Below are positions 9,306-15,494 of a DNA stretch of 34,059 bases, piece after piece. A program made the position numbers and the translations under genes. Numbering within the stretch: the first letter of the stretch is position 1; each line of letters opens with the position of its first letter. Source of the stretch: Acidobacteriota bacterium (GTDB taxonomy: Bacteria; Actinomycetota; Acidimicrobiia; Spongiisociales; UBA5794); assembly GCA_022562055.1 (NCBI GenBank), contig JADFQA010000033.1, positions 1-34,059 of the forward strand. Direction: 5' to 3'. Under the pieces are notes generated by a model. The model made no database searches, was not told where the DNA came from, and saw only the letters and a list, made by a program, of their open reading frames with translations.

Positions 9306-9333
9306 TTGACACTGTGTCACAGAATGCCATACT
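9306..9333 (+). promoter_or_regulatory. Promoter of the ilvBNC-leuAB operon
   Basis: A perfect -35 TTGACA (9306-9311), a 16-bp spacer and a -10 CATACT (9328-9333, 4 of 6). The expected start of transcription is near 9340, which puts the leader-peptide ribosome site AAGGA (9353-9357) just inside the transcript. Confidence 0.65.
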
Positions 9334-9365
9334 CGCTGCACAAGTTGTTATCAAGGACAAACAGC

Positions 9366-9401
9366 ATGACACCAACTCTCAACCTCGTACTTATTTGGTA
9401 G
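9366..9401 (+). CDS. ilvB leader peptide (branched-chain amino acid attenuator)
   Basis: An 11-codon reading frame, ATG to TAG, encoding MTPTLNLVLIW. Five of its last seven codons are branched-chain: Leu CTC, Leu CTC, Val GTA, Leu CTT, Ile ATT. AAGGA lies 8 nt before the ATG. It sits between a consensus promoter and an intrinsic terminator ahead of ilvB, the standard layout of transcription attenuation, where ribosome stalling at scarce Leu/Val/Ile tRNA prevents termination. Leader peptides of this kind are known for ilv operons of enterics and for ilvB of corynebacteria and relatives. It is too short for ordinary gene finders. Confidence 0.85.
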   Translation: MTPTLNLVLIW

Positions 9402-9433
9402 GCGCATAGAAACGCCAGAGTTTCTTATGCGCC
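9401..9433 (+). promoter_or_regulatory. Leader hairpin of the ilvB attenuator
   Basis: GGCGCATA (9401-9408) plus GAAAC pairs with GTTTC plus TATGCGCC (9426-9433), 13 bp with one bulged T and a 6-nt loop. Its first G is the last base of the leader stop codon TAG, so a ribosome at the stop would melt the stem and a ribosome stalled at the Leu/Val/Ile codons would not. The stem can extend by GGT (9397-9399) pairing with ACC (9437-9439), which takes three bases from the terminator's 5' arm. Confidence 0.75.
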
Positions 9434-9436
9434 GAC

Positions 9437-9460
9437 ACCCTCCATCCGGAGGGTTTTTTT
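9437..9460 (+). terminator. Intrinsic terminator (attenuator) before ilvB
   Basis: ACCCTCC (9437-9443), loop ATCC, GGAGGGT (9448-9454), then a run of seven T ending at 9460. This is a textbook rho-independent terminator located 58 nt before the ilvB ATG, so it must be read through for the operon to be expressed. Confidence 0.88.
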
Positions 9461-9518: not shown

Positions 9519-11237
9519 ATGAGCGAACAACTCACCGGGGCGCAGGCCCTCATACGATCACTCGAACTTGAAGGTGTCGAGGTCGTCTTCGGGATACCCG
9601 GCGGTGCGATCCTGCCCGCATACGACCCGTTGTTGGACTCACCGATCCGCCACGTCCTTGCGCGGCACGAACAGGGAGCCGGGCATATGGCGTCTGGTTA
9701 CGCCCACGCCTCTGGCAAAGTCGGGGTGACCATTGCAACGTCTGGCCCGGGTGCCACGAACCTCGTCACGCCACTCGCTGACGCCTACGCCGATTCGATA
9801 CCCGTGGTCGCAATCACCGGCCAGGTGGCAACAACATCGATCGGGTCCGACGCCTTCCAGGAAGCCCACACCTGGGGGATCACAGCGCCGTGTACAAAAC
9901 ACAACTACCTGGTCACCAACGTCAACGACATCCCAAACGTCATCCGCGAGGCTTTCCACCTGGCATCTACGGGTAGACCTGGTCCGGTGCTTGTTGACCT
10001 CCCAAAAGACTTGCTCGTCGCCACCATGGAGTGGACCGGCAGAGGAGAGATCGATCTCCCTGGGTACAAGCCGCGCAGCGAAGGAAACCACAAGCAGATC
10101 GTTGCGGCGATCAAGCTGCTCCTCGAGTCAGAACGTCCGGTGTTTTATGCGGGCGGTGGGTTGATTCGCGCCGCGGCGTCAGCAGAAGCACATGCGTTTG
10201 CGAGGGCAGCCAACCTCCCAGTGGTGACCACACTCATGGGCCGCGGCGCCATCCCTGATTCATATGAGAAACATCTCGGAATGCCGGGCATGCACGGCAC
10301 CTACGCCGCGACGATTGCCATGCAAGAGGCCGATCTGCTGTTCACTATCGGGGCACGGTTTGACGACCGCGTCACCGGCAAGGTCTCGGCGTTTGCGCCG
10401 CACGCAAAGGTTGTCCACGTCGATGTCGACCCGGCAGAAATCGGCAAGGTTCGTAACGCCGAGGTCCCGGTCGTTGGCGACGCCAAGGCGGTTTTGAACC
10501 AGCTCATTGTAGAACATGCCAAGCAGCTTGACGGTGCCGCAGCGCCAACGTACCAACCGTGGATCGACACAATTCTCGGCTGGCGGTCGGAACACCCGCT
10601 CGCCTTCGATCAGAACCCCGATGGCCCGATCCTCCCGCAATACTTCATCAGCGAACTCTCGAACCGGGTCAGTGACCACGCCATCGTGGTTGCGGGAGTC
10701 GGACAACACCAGATGTGGGCGTCACAGTTTTGGCACTTCGAGCGGCCGAATACATGGATCAACTCGGGCGGACTCGGAACGATGGGGTACGCAGTCCCGG
10801 CGGCTGTCGGTGCACAGGCAGCAATGCCAGACACCACGGTTTGGGTCATTGATGGCGACGGATGTTTCCAGATGACGAGCCAAGAGCTCATCACAGCCGC
10901 CATCGAGGGTCTGCCGGTCAAAATCGCCATAATGAACAACGGGTCCCTCGGGATGGTGAAGCAGTGGCAAAGCCTTTTTTACAACGGACGCCTCTCGTCA
11001 GTTGACCTCTCTGGCGGTATCCCAGACTTTGTGATGCTCGCGGAAGCTATGGGCTGCGCGGGATTGCGGGTCGACCATCCATCGGAAGTGCCCGCAATCA
11101 TCGAAAAAGCAATCGGCATCACCGACAAACCCGTCGTCATCGACGTCGTGTGTGACCCCGACGAGATGGTTTTTCCGATGGTGCCGGCCGGCGGGTCGAA
11201 CAGCGACCTCGTGCTGAACATTGAAGGTTTGCAGTGA
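9519..11237 (+). CDS. ilvB: Acetolactate synthase, large (catalytic) subunit
   Basis: 572-residue ThDP/FAD/Mg enzyme that condenses two pyruvates to acetolactate, or pyruvate with 2-oxobutyrate, the first shared step to valine, leucine and isoleucine. The ThDP-activating glutamate is E51 in ARHEQGAGHMASGYA. The C-terminal ThDP-Mg motif runs from GDGCFQMTSQEL to IMNN. The segment GMPGMHGTYAA and the substrate-channel residues around SLGMVKQWQ are typical of biosynthetic AHAS rather than catabolic AlsS. Length fits the family. The start at 9519 follows GGAGCACCAGG. It overlaps ilvN by GTGA. Control by the attenuator upstream is strongly indicated. Confidence 0.97.
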   Translation: MSEQLTGAQALIRSLELEGVEVVFGIPGGAILPAYDPLLDSPIRHVLARHEQGAGHMASGYAHASGKVGVTIATSGPGATNLVTPLADAYADSIPVVAITGQVATTSIGSDAFQEAHTWGITAPCTKHNYLVTNVNDIPNVIREAFHLASTGRPGPVLVDLPKDLLVATMEWTGRGEIDLPGYKPRSEGNHKQIVAAIKLLLESERPVFYAGGGLIRAAASAEAHAFARAANLPVVTTLMGRGAIPDSYEKHLGMPGMHGTYAATIAMQEADLLFTIGARFDDRVTGKVSAFAPHAKVVHVDVDPAEIGKVRNAEVPVVGDAKAVLNQLIVEHAKQLDGAAAPTYQPWIDTILGWRSEHPLAFDQNPDGPILPQYFISELSNRVSDHAIVVAGVGQHQMWASQFWHFERPNTWINSGGLGTMGYAVPAAVGAQAAMPDTTVWVIDGDGCFQMTSQELITAAIEGLPVKIAIMNNGSLGMVKQWQSLFYNGRLSSVDLSGGIPDFVMLAEAMGCAGLRVDHPSEVPAIIEKAIGITDKPVVIDVVCDPDEMVFPMVPAGGSNSDLVLNIEGLQ

Positions 11238-11728
11238 GCCACGTCATCAGTGTCCTCGTCGAGAACAAACCCGGCGTTCTCGCCAGGGTCGCCACCATGT
11301 TTGCCCGTCGTGGATTCAACATTCATTCGCTAACAGTCGGACCAACGGCCGAAGAGGGCATGTCACGCATGACTGTGGTGGTCGACGCTCCCGCGGTCGA
11401 ACAGATCACCAAGCAGCTTTACAAGCTGATCAACACGGTGAAGGTCACAGAATTCGCTCCGGGCCAAGCGGTCGAACGAGAACTCATGCTTGTCAAAGTC
11501 AACGTCGATCCCAAACGTCGCTCGGAGGTGCTCAACGCCGCCGCCGTGTTCGACGCATCGGCTGTGGACGTCGGGTCGGCGTCGCTGATGTTTCAGGTCG
11601 CGGGCACACCTGAGACCCTTGCAGATTTCCTCGAGATGATGCGACCCTATGGTGTCGCAGCGCTGGTGAAATCGGGACGCATTGCACTAGCCAAGAACTC
11701 GAAATCGAAAGCGGCCGCCAGGGCTTAG
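11234..11728 (+). CDS. ilvN: Acetolactate synthase, small (regulatory) subunit
   Basis: 164 residues with an N-terminal ACT domain (VISVLVENKPGVLARVATMFARRGFNIHSL) that binds valine for feedback inhibition in known homologues, and the C-terminal ALS_ss_C domain (VERELMLVKV onward). It starts with GTG inside the ilvB stop (GTGA), ensuring coupled synthesis of the two subunits. The Lys/Ala tail is ordinary for actinobacterial IlvN. Confidence 0.96.
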   Translation: MSHVISVLVENKPGVLARVATMFARRGFNIHSLTVGPTAEEGMSRMTVVVDAPAVEQITKQLYKLINTVKVTEFAPGQAVERELMLVKVNVDPKRRSEVLNAAAVFDASAVDVGSASLMFQVAGTPETLADFLEMMRPYGVAALVKSGRIALAKNSKSKAAARA

Positions 11729-11760: not shown

Positions 11761-12777
11761 ATGACACATATGTACTACGAGAAGGACGCCAACCCGGCGC
11801 TGATCGCCAACCGCAGAGTTGCCGTGATCGGTTTTGGCAGCCAGGGCCACGCCCATGCCCTCAACCTCAAGGACTCCGGCGTCGATGTGATGGTCGGTCT
11901 GCGCGAGGAATCGGCACGCCGCGACCTCGTGGCCGCCAACGGTCTCAAGGTGACAACACCAGCGGAGGCTGCCGACTGGGCTGACCTCACCATGGTTCTG
12001 GTGCCCGATCAGCACCAGGCCAAGCTGTACGTCGAGTCCATTGCCCCAACTCTGCGGAGTGGCGACGCACTGTTTTTTGCCCACGGCTTCAACATCCACT
12101 TCGGATACATCAAACCACCCGAGGGTGTTGACGTTGCAATGGTCGCACCAAAAGGGCCCGGCCATCTCGTCCGTCGCCAGTACCAAGAGAACAGCGGCGT
12201 GCCGGCGTTGATTGCAGTGCACCAGGACGCATCCGGTTCAGCAAAGGATCTGGCACTGTCGTACGCCCACGGCATCGGAGGCACCCGCGCCGGTGTCATC
12301 GAAACGACGTTCAAGGATGAAACCGAAACGGACCTGTTTGGGGAGCAGGTCATCCTCTGCGGTGGCATCGACGAGTTGATCCGAGCCGCGTTTGAGACAC
12401 TCACCGATGCAGGGTACGCACCTGAAATGGCGTATTTCGAGGTACTCCATGAGCTCAAGCTCATCGTCGATCTTCTCTGGGAAGGCGGCATCACGTGGAT
12501 GAGGTATTCCGTGTCTGACACCGCCGAATACGGCGACGTCACACGAGGACCGCGCATTGTCACCGAAGAGACACGTGCCACGATGCGCACGATCCTGAGC
12601 GAGATCCAATCCGGCGAGTTTGCCCGCGAATGGATGGCTGAGAACGAGGCCGGGGCACCAAATCTTCTTGCTGCCCGACGTGCTGTTGCAGAACATCCGA
12701 TTGAAGCCATCGGGAAGCAACTTCGTGCAATGATGCCTTTCCTGGTCGAGAAAAGCCCAGAGAACGAGGGTATCTAG
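11761..12777 (+). CDS. ilvC: Ketol-acid reductoisomerase (class I)
   Basis: 338 residues, the usual class I length. It isomerises and reduces acetolactate to 2,3-dihydroxyisovalerate with NAD(P)H and Mg. The Rossmann motif [12 protein letters not shown] is near 24, [13 protein letters not shown] follows, and the C-terminal knotted domain carries the metal- and substrate-binding acids in [15 protein letters not shown] and [25 protein letters not shown] lies upstream of the ATG. Position after ilvBN completes the common ilvBNC unit; ilvD and ilvE are not in the window. Six nucleotides after its stop begins the leuA leader peptide. Confidence 0.97.
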
Positions 12778-12897: not shown

Positions 12898-14414
12898 ATG
12901 ACCGACAGACTCATCATTCTCGACACCACCCTGAGGGATGGAGAACAGGCCCCGGGCATAGCGCTCTCTCCCGACGACAAGGTGGCCATTGCTCACCAGC
13001 TCGCAAGACTCCAAGTAGACGTCATCGAGGCGGGTTTTGCCGCCTCATCACCTGGCGACTTCCTGTCGGTGTCACGAATCGCAGCCGAAGTCAGGGGTCC
13101 GGTCATTGCGTGTCTTGCTCGCACAATGTCCGATGACATCGACCAGGCGGCCGACGCTCTGCGCCCAGCGGACCGATCGCGCATCCATGTGTTCATCTCG
13201 ACCTCGCAGATCCATATGGAACAGATGTTGCGCATGGACAAGCAACAAGTACTCAAGGCGATCGTGGAGAGTGTTACGCGTGCCAAGGGATACTGCGAGG
13301 ACGTCGAGTTCTCGCCACAGGACGCAACCCGTACCGACCCTGATTTTGTGATCGAGACGTGCCGTGTTGCCGTCGCGGCCGGCGCAACAACAATCAACAT
13401 CCCCGACACGGTCGGGTACGCAATGCCAGAGCAGTTCGCCGCTCTGATGACCAGGGTATTCGAGGAAGTCAGACAGGGCAACGAGGACGTGATCCTGTCG
13501 ACACACTGCCACAACGACCTCGGACTTGCGGTCGCGAACTCGCTGGCGGCGATCGAGGCAGGAGCCCGACAGATCGAGGGCGCAATCAACGGTATCGGCG
13601 AACGCGCTGGGAACACTTCCACCGAGGAGATCATCATGGCGGTAAAAACCCGCCAGGACTATTTCAACGTTGAGATCGGTGCAAACACGACTGAAATTGT
13701 CGAAACATCGAGGATGGTTGCGCGTCTTACGGGCTACCCCGTCCAGTACAACAAGGCGGTTGTTGGTAGGAACGCATTTGCCCACGAGTCAGGGATCCAT
13801 CAGCACGGAGTGCTCCGCCATCGAGAGACTTATGAAATTATGGACCCGGCGTCGGTGGGACACCGATCGGTCCTGGTGCTCGGCAAACATTCTGGGAGAG
13901 CAGCGTTTGCCGACGCCCTCAACAAGATGGACATCAGCCTTGATGACGAGGCATTTGCAAGGGCGTTCAAACGCTTCAAAGAACTCGCCGACCGCAAGGG
14001 CGAGATCAGCGAAAAAGGTCTGCGCGCCATCATCAACACACAGGCTGCAGTCCCGCGCGGCGAGATCACCCTCATAGGGATACAAGTATCGGGTGGTCAC
14101 GACCAGACACCTAAAGCCTCCGTGACGGTGGCACAAGGCGGAGTCGAGGACACGTTTGCGGGCGAGGGGGACGGCATGATCAACGCCACGTTTGTGGCCC
14201 TCCAGGATGCCTTTGGTGTTGCGGCCACGCTGCTCGACTACCGCGTCAGCCCGGTCACTCCGGGTGCCGACGCGATCGCCGAGGTGAATGTCATCCTCCA
14301 GGTGGGTTCTTCGACCTTTTCGGGGCGAGGTGTGTCGACGGACGTCGTCGAAGGATCGGCACTCGCGTTTGTCGCCGCCCTCAACAAAACCCTTACCGAA
14401 GATGAGGTCGCCGA

Positions 14415-14418
<4 letters not shown>
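12898..14418 (+). CDS. leuA: 2-isopropylmalate synthase
   Basis: 506-residue enzyme that condenses 2-oxoisovalerate with acetyl-CoA, committing carbon to leucine. N-terminal HMGL-like barrel: DTTLRDGEQ at about 9-17 with the metal-binding Asp and Arg, [12 protein letters not shown] near 202 with metal-binding histidines, and [10 protein letters not shown]. The C-terminal LeuA dimer/allosteric domain (about 360-500) is where leucine binds in homologues. At 506 residues it is the shorter LeuA form seen in E. coli rather than the ~600-residue form common in mycobacteria and streptomycetes. AAAGGA lies 6 nt before the ATG. It overlaps leuB by GTGA. Confidence 0.95.

Positions 14419-15494
<1,076 letters not shown>

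Follow-up and report, generated by a model that had tools for sequence, protein, structure and literature searches.

A leader-peptide attenuator proposed for the ilvBNC-leuAB operon of an acidimicrobial genome, with counterparts across the Actinomycetota

Leader peptides have been described before ilvB of Corynebacterium, Mycobacterium, and Streptomyces, and the mode of ilvB regulation has been termed unclear (Seliverstov et al., PMC1262725). As far as its available text goes, that study reports leaders together with terminators at actinobacterial ilvB without listing an antiterminator there, describes the LEU element of leuA as a pseudoknot without a terminator, and cites codon substitutions in the S. 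coelicolor ilvB leader that were reported to be ineffective. In S. lividans, an IlvL leader precedes ilvBHC, and LeuL leaders precede leuS and leuA (available text of PMC8079986). The elements described here resemble the candidate leaders of Streptomyces and other Actinobacteria in having Leu/Val/Ile leaders at ilvB and Leu leaders at leuS and leuA (PMC1262725, PMC8079986). No leader before the citramalate synthase gene (cimA) or before leuB-ilvE-cimA was found in the available portions of these two papers, and the literature searched on leader peptides and ribosome-mediated attenuation, in Acidimicrobiia and with citramalate synthase, yielded no description of an attenuator upstream of this gene.

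According to the accessible text of PMC13236596, changing LVVI to AAAA in the leader of M. tuberculosis ilvB1 abolishes induction, and a terminated RNA of ~120 nt has been observed. The ilvB1NC leader shares with the present locus an upstream open reading frame (uORF) rich in codons for branched-chain amino acids (BCAA), with LVVI and a GUA codon, a terminated transcript of ~120 nt (only expected here), and a proposed antiterminator that forms when the ribosome stalls and is masked when it stands at the stop codon; however, it is described there as two mutually exclusive structures, in another lineage and for ilvB1 only (PMC13236596). In C. glutamicum ilvBNC, mutations in the terminator raise expression seven- to eight-fold, and the antiterminator and terminator have a boundary trinucleotide in common, as described in the available part of PMC11857589. 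This leader and the ilvB-II motif resemble the present locus in their CUU GUA control codons and in the order of a hairpin and then a terminator before ilvB (PMC11857589, PMC10272879, as far as available).

The attenuators of the E. coli thr, leu, his, trp, phe, ilvGMEDA, and ilvBN operons likewise use a leader peptide with control codons, and the position of the ribosome decides termination. In contrast to most of the elements described below, their antiterminator takes 4-9 nt of the 5' arm of the terminator in all seven cases. In the literature on attenuators without an antiterminator, or on antitermination by a hairpin adjacent to the terminator, nothing on point was found.

The leader region of ilvB in the window

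The window is the whole stretch of DNA that was analyzed, 34,059 nucleotides of an acidimicrobial contig. A first-pass annotation, made from the letters alone, had read a promoter, an AAGGA ribosome-binding site, an 11-codon leader, a 13-bp hairpin, and a terminator with seven T between positions 9306 and 9460, and all of these parts were read again in the sequence (Table 1). The promoter matches the consensus at 10 of 12 positions, and such a promoter was found once, against 0.2 expected from shuffles. The leader codons are ATG ACA CCA ACT CTC AAC CTC GTA CTT ATT TGG, followed by TAG. One refinement of the earlier reading concerns the end of the leader, which lies on the first hairpin (P1), as the G of the TAG stop is the first paired base of its stem. 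Three nucleotides separate P1 from the terminator hairpin (P2), and the two have no bases in common. The 60-nt segment with P1 and the terminator has a free energy of -33.6 kcal/mol (z -7.1), and none of 200 shuffles was equally stable. The genes that follow encode the acetolactate synthase subunits and further enzymes of BCAA synthesis, and upstream of the element is a divergently oriented gene whose product has a YacP-like NYN domain.

The earlier description of the attenuator as complete needs one qualification, as it lacks an antiterminator that overlaps the terminator, which classical attenuators have. The 13-bp hairpin and the terminator are separate, so this hairpin is not an antiterminator of the textbook kind.

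Table 1. Positions of the leader elements and the operon genes in the window
Feature	Position	Strand	Remarks
Promoter TTGACA-16-CATACT	9306..9333	+	TTGACA 9306-9311, 16 nt, CATACT 9328-9333
Ribosome-binding site AAGGA of leader	9353..9357	+	Read from sequence
Leader ORF MTPTLNLVLIW	9366..9401	+	Codons 9366-9398, TAG stop 9399-9401
Control codons CTC GTA CTT ATT (Leu Val Leu Ile)	9384..9395	+	Codons -5 to -2 relative to the stop
Hairpin P1	9401..9433	+	13 bp, bulged T9425; 5' arm 9401-9413, loop 9414-9419, 3' arm 9420-9433; proposed ribosome-controlled antiterminator
Intrinsic terminator P2	9437..9460	+	7-bp stem 9437-9454, loop 4; T-run 9454-9460, 7 T
ilvB, acetolactate synthase large subunit	9519..11237	+	NF005860, TIGR00118 above cut-off
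ilvN, acetolactate synthase small subunit	11234..11728	+	TIGR00119, NF008864 above cut-off
ilvC, ketol-acid reductoisomerase	11761..12777	+	NF004017 above cut-off
leuA, 2-isopropylmalate synthase	12898..14418	+	TIGR00973 above cut-off
leuB, 3-isopropylmalate dehydrogenase	14415..15494	+	TIGR00169 above cut-off

Distribution of the element and amino acids of its leaders

Related genomes contained the same arrangement. A DNA search of 60 of them gave a match in 41, and the layout was identical in all 30 loci fetched. The Leu/Val/Ile codons, whose loss in close relatives would have counted against the first-pass annotation, were kept within the same genus (MARTLNLVILR, MSQTLNLVILR). With a first covariance model (R1), the element was detected in 94 of the 110 genomes of the order, mostly in two copies per genome; among the 16 genomes without a match, 11 belonged to one family (f8; G043, G050, G056, G074, G075, and G078-G083), in which matches were thus largely missing. 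A second model (R2, E ≤ 0.001) matched 186 of 246 genomes at the level of the class and 72 of 296 at that of the phylum. The element was also present in 67 of 80 named ilvB contigs, labeled mostly as Acidimicrobiia and other Actinomycetota. Four contigs titled Bifidobacterium breve, Acidobacteria, or Thermoanaerobacterales (L253, L256, L272, and L287) all carried it, and their IlvB proteins were 56-58% identical to the acidimicrobial-type protein; these titles are probably wrong.

Eight genomes from the phylum were inspected by hand. Six showed control codons, a few nucleotides, P1, 0 nt, and P2, and no such leader was seen in the other two. In a 9.2-Mb genome (L338), the leader was the S. lividans IlvL peptide MRTRILVLGKRVG, and the control codons were followed by 4 nt, P1, 0 nt, and P2. 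The leader of one further element (L013, genome G003) continues beyond the usual stop, enters P1, and finishes at a TAG within the hairpin, like the Streptomyces-type leader of L338.

The model searches gave 173 hits, of which three were duplicates of the same place, leaving 170 distinct elements. These precede ilvB (89), cimA (44), leuA (18), leuB (11), and leuS (5, one of them on a very short contig end and four assigned by tblastn similarity only), and three outliers were retained in the set. One outlier (L131, genome G330) is an element-like hit before a 92-aa ORF that is followed by the prephenate dehydratase gene (pheA); another (L185, genome G322) lies before isocitrate lyase, and its leader is poor, and it may have matched by chance; the third (L049) is at a contig end.

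In nearly all 170 elements, codons -4 to -2 before the stop specify BCAA, and the amino acid corresponds to the gene downstream. Within the last six codons, the leaders of cimA contain on average 3.34 Ile and 0.07 Leu, those of leuA 3.83 Leu and 0.06 Ile, and those of ilvB 2.04 Leu, 1.62 Val, and 0.87 Ile. The citramalate synthase leaders end in runs of Ile (TIIIT, IIIID), and those of leuA and leuS in runs of Leu (DLLLLM, RLLLT). The count of Ile minus Leu did not overlap between these groups, with a minimum of +2 for cimA against a maximum of -2 for leuA and leuS (0 of 20000 permutations). The joint response to Leu, Val, and Ile that had been expected of the operon fits the ilvB leaders, as all three amino acids occur together in 72 of the 89.

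The leaders of leuB contain Ile and Val and hardly any Leu. In two of three operons examined (L332 in G143 and L334 in G217), a PRK03437-type leuB is followed by ilvE and then citramalate synthase, and in the third (L333 in G176) citramalate synthase lies farther downstream. With these gene orders, leaders with Ile and Val fit an isoleucine operon, which suggests that the PRK03437-type "leuB" of these three operons serves the citramalate route to isoleucine. The genome of the window itself carries a second element on another contig (L065, G000:C12:10687-10767), directly before citramalate synthase (TIGR00977), and its leader ends in ...SFEIIT, with Ile control codons.

Since R1 and R2 contain leader columns, which biases them toward BCAA leaders, a third model (R3) was built without the leader. 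It starts at the stop codon and is built on an alignment of 58 sequences out of 60 offered; diversity and hairpin size guided their choice among 111 of the 170 elements. R3 matched 101 of 119 genomes of the class (E ≤ 0.01). Forty of its hits, hand-picked from a longer list as not previously seen, were fetched; they lie before ilvB (16), cimA (4), leuA (3), and leuB (17), and 35 of them have BCAA codons at all three of -4, -3, and -2, while the leader of one (L297) is poor. The search with R3 for members with leaders other than BCAA yielded none among these 40 hits.

Rare codons were preferred in the leaders. At leader positions -6 to -2, 106 of 163 Val codons (65%) are GTA, compared with 3.6% in the downstream genes (18-fold), and CTT (34% vs 6.5%) and ATT (37% vs 9.4%) are likewise enriched, with CTG down to 12% from 36%. 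A rare codon is well suited to sensitive sensing, and the control codons of the window are CTC GTA CTT ATT. Of the 170 elements, 160 have TAG as the stop of the leader, and 4 or 5 nt lie between the last control codon and P1 in 148. It is this distance that is conserved, because the control codons shift along with the stop when it comes one codon earlier.

A crude promoter pattern was found in 94 of 170 elements, and boxes like TTGAC...ATACTC lie upstream of the leaders of most relatives. In 62 of the 92 elements with a recognizable promoter, the first in-frame start follows the -10 box within 12 nt, and in many at ~10 nt, which suggests that these leader-peptide mRNAs may be leaderless. The window is an exception, with 32 nt from the -10 box to the start and a Shine-Dalgarno site.

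Two hairpins side by side and the position of the ribosome

All 170 elements fold as exactly two hairpins, and P1 begins 0-4 nt downstream of the stop codon's A. The gap between P1 and P2 is 0 nt in 54 elements, 1 nt in 38, 2 nt in 31, 3 nt in 33, and 4-6 nt in 14, so that 156 lie within 0-3 nt. Both hairpins co-vary, with double-sided changes in 13 of 15 pairs (alignment A3) and 14 of 18 (alignment A6), and none of 500 shuffles reached this.

In a classical attenuator, the structure of the starved state would take bases of the 5' or 3' arm of the terminator, or at least have a small boundary in common with it, as in the "fast" attenuator of C. glutamicum with its three boundary nucleotides (PMC11857589, available text). 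We consider this the best of the alternative readings and nonetheless an unlikely one, on the following evidence. Twenty pairs of segments, drawn from the leader, the buffer, the 40 nt downstream, and the arms and loops of both hairpins, were compared, native against permuted. Co-evolution appeared only between the two arms of P1 (z -41) and the two arms of P2 (z -34); the other 18 segment pairs gave no signal of an alternative, antiterminator pairing, and pairing of the P1 5' arm with the P2 5' arm was avoided (z +5.3).

Several pairings noticed by eye were examined in the same way. A leader/P1-loop pairing (AACTCT with AGAGTT) and an extension of the P1 foot (GGU with ACC), each seen in a few sequences, were unsupported across the set, and a helix between the 3' arms of P1 and P2 in L096 and L098 (10 and 6 bp) had no overall co-variation (z 0.8). 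The Corynebacterium-type pairing of the P1 loop with the 3' arm of P2 did not co-vary either (z -0.2), although a C-rich/G-rich pairing near -6 kcal/mol that does not vary may still occur across the set.

The stalled ribosome was then modeled, with 13 nt assumed from its A site to its leading edge, and seven E. coli attenuators were passed through the same calculation as controls. Freeing the 5' arm of the terminator cost 7.1-15.3 kcal/mol in all seven controls. In contrast, with the ribosome stalled at -4, the median of the 170 elements was 0.14 kcal/mol and the window gave 0.05, and a single element reached 3 kcal/mol; at stalls -3 and -2, the medians were 0.38 and 1.51 kcal/mol, and 11 and 36 of 170 elements reached 3 kcal/mol. 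In a coupling test with pair penalties, six of the seven E. coli controls gave 8.8-15.3 kcal/mol, and hisL gave 1.8. At stall -4, the two states have no base in common in 122 of 170 elements and in the window, against the 4-9 nt of all seven E. coli attenuators. The remaining 48 elements share 1-8 nt, and 19 share at least 4, so some elements may work by overlap. The Corynebacterium models also differ from these elements, as they need the common boundary trinucleotide or pairing of the P1 loop with P2 and their uORF crosses P1 (PMC11857589, PMC10272879, as far as available), whereas the leader described here ends at P1.

The position of the ribosome has a computed effect on P1 itself. As the A site moves from -4 to the stop, the free energy of the RNA between the ribosome edge and the terminator goes from -20.3 through -13.9, -6.6, and -3.3 to -1.8 kcal/mol, and in the window from -20.5 (stall -4) to -3.5 kcal/mol (stop). 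Thermodynamically, the formation of P1 slightly favors P2 rather than opposing it, and therefore a model in which P1 counters P2 has to rely on kinetic or steric effects that are invisible to folding programs.

A proposed mechanism and its significance

The best explanation, which we regard as likely, is that the element controls the ilvBNC-leuAB operon by ribosome-mediated transcription attenuation. For this organism, we infer from the sequence where transcription starts, that the leader is translated, and that termination and regulation take place. RNA polymerase would start near 9340 and make the leader, and a ribosome would translate MTPTLNLVLIW close behind it. When the tRNAs for Leu, Val, and Ile are all charged, the ribosome would reach the TAG, and its front edge would extend over the P1 5' arm by about 10-12 nt; P1 would be blocked, and P2 with its T-run would end transcription. 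If any of Leu, Val, or Ile were short, the ribosome would halt on CTC GTA CTT ATT with its edge at or just before P1, P1 would form, and the polymerase would continue into ilvB. P1, 0-3 nt from the base of P2, would keep P2 from closing in the exit channel of the polymerase without taking one of its strands.

The conserved unit, the co-varying hairpins, and leader amino acids that follow the downstream gene support the attenuator before ilvB proposed in the first-pass annotation, and the window element is almost certainly a BCAA-sensing attenuator. P1 is probably its antiterminator: biosynthesis genes need read-through on starvation, so P1 would have to counter P2 without common bases. The step in which P1 blocks P2 is drawn from geometry and physiology, because folding energies fail to show it, and we give about even chances to P1 acting without base-pair overlap in the window.

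P1 might instead merely pause the polymerase or protect the RNA, keeping the ribosome and polymerase in step, while something unseen in the sequence, such as a protein, blocks termination. The position of P1 relative to the leader would fit this role, and hairpins of classical attenuators double as pause signals. However, the terminator would then have no switching element, the abutment of P1 and P2 would be needless for mere pausing, and the placement of the control codons leaves P1 free when the ribosome stalls on them but blocked when the ribosome stands at the stop. We judge a pausing role improbable, somewhat more so than overlap.

The attenuator in which starvation lets P1 form is also preferred over the reverse logic, in which the P1 3' arm is released once the ribosome stands at the stop, this arm weakens P2, and ample amino acid leads to read-through. 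The median advantage of the terminator is indeed lower at the stop (8.5 kcal/mol) than at stall -4 (14.3 kcal/mol), but P2 is still ahead by 8.5 kcal/mol, the difference in the window is about 1 (11.1 vs 10.2 kcal/mol), the complementarity between the 3' arms of P1 and P2 shows no co-variation, and M. tuberculosis shows induction upon BCAA depletion (PMC13236596, available text), which makes this reading very improbable. Least credible of all is an unregulated element (a constitutive terminator that happens to follow an ORF arisen by chance) or a riboswitch or T-box: the S. coelicolor codon substitutions cited in the available text of PMC1262725 would agree with the former, but the 170 + 40 elements have product-matched codons, the window has no match in Rfam (release 15; T-box, ppGpp riboswitch, and all others) at gathering scores, and eight loci searched at a relaxed threshold gave none above gathering (best 28.3 bits against 50 needed).

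Because six of the eight phylum genomes examined by hand, including the S. lividans IlvL-type leader, share the layout, the window element belongs to a phylum-wide kind. What is added here is the form in Acidimicrobiia, the spread over the BCAA regulon, and the absence of base sharing. These findings suggest why an antiterminator is missing from the available account of Seliverstov et al. (PMC1262725), as a predicted starved-state hairpin would abut the terminator and not overlap it. We propose tentatively, at somewhat less than even confidence, that the Actinomycetota have a distinct class of attenuator with a non-overlapping, abutting antiterminator, in which one chassis with three or four re-coded codons runs the whole BCAA regulon (ilvB, cimA, leuA, leuS, and leuB-ilvE-cimA).

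If this is true, RNA structure need not compete for the strands of an intrinsic terminator in order to switch it, and programs that seek mutually exclusive hairpins will miss such switches. The element would be a modular part whose amino-acid specificity is set by three codons. The order of control codons, 4-5 nt, hairpin, 0-3 nt, and terminator may serve as an annotation marker for BCAA regulation in uncultured Actinomycetota, where it would also flag the citramalate route to isoleucine.
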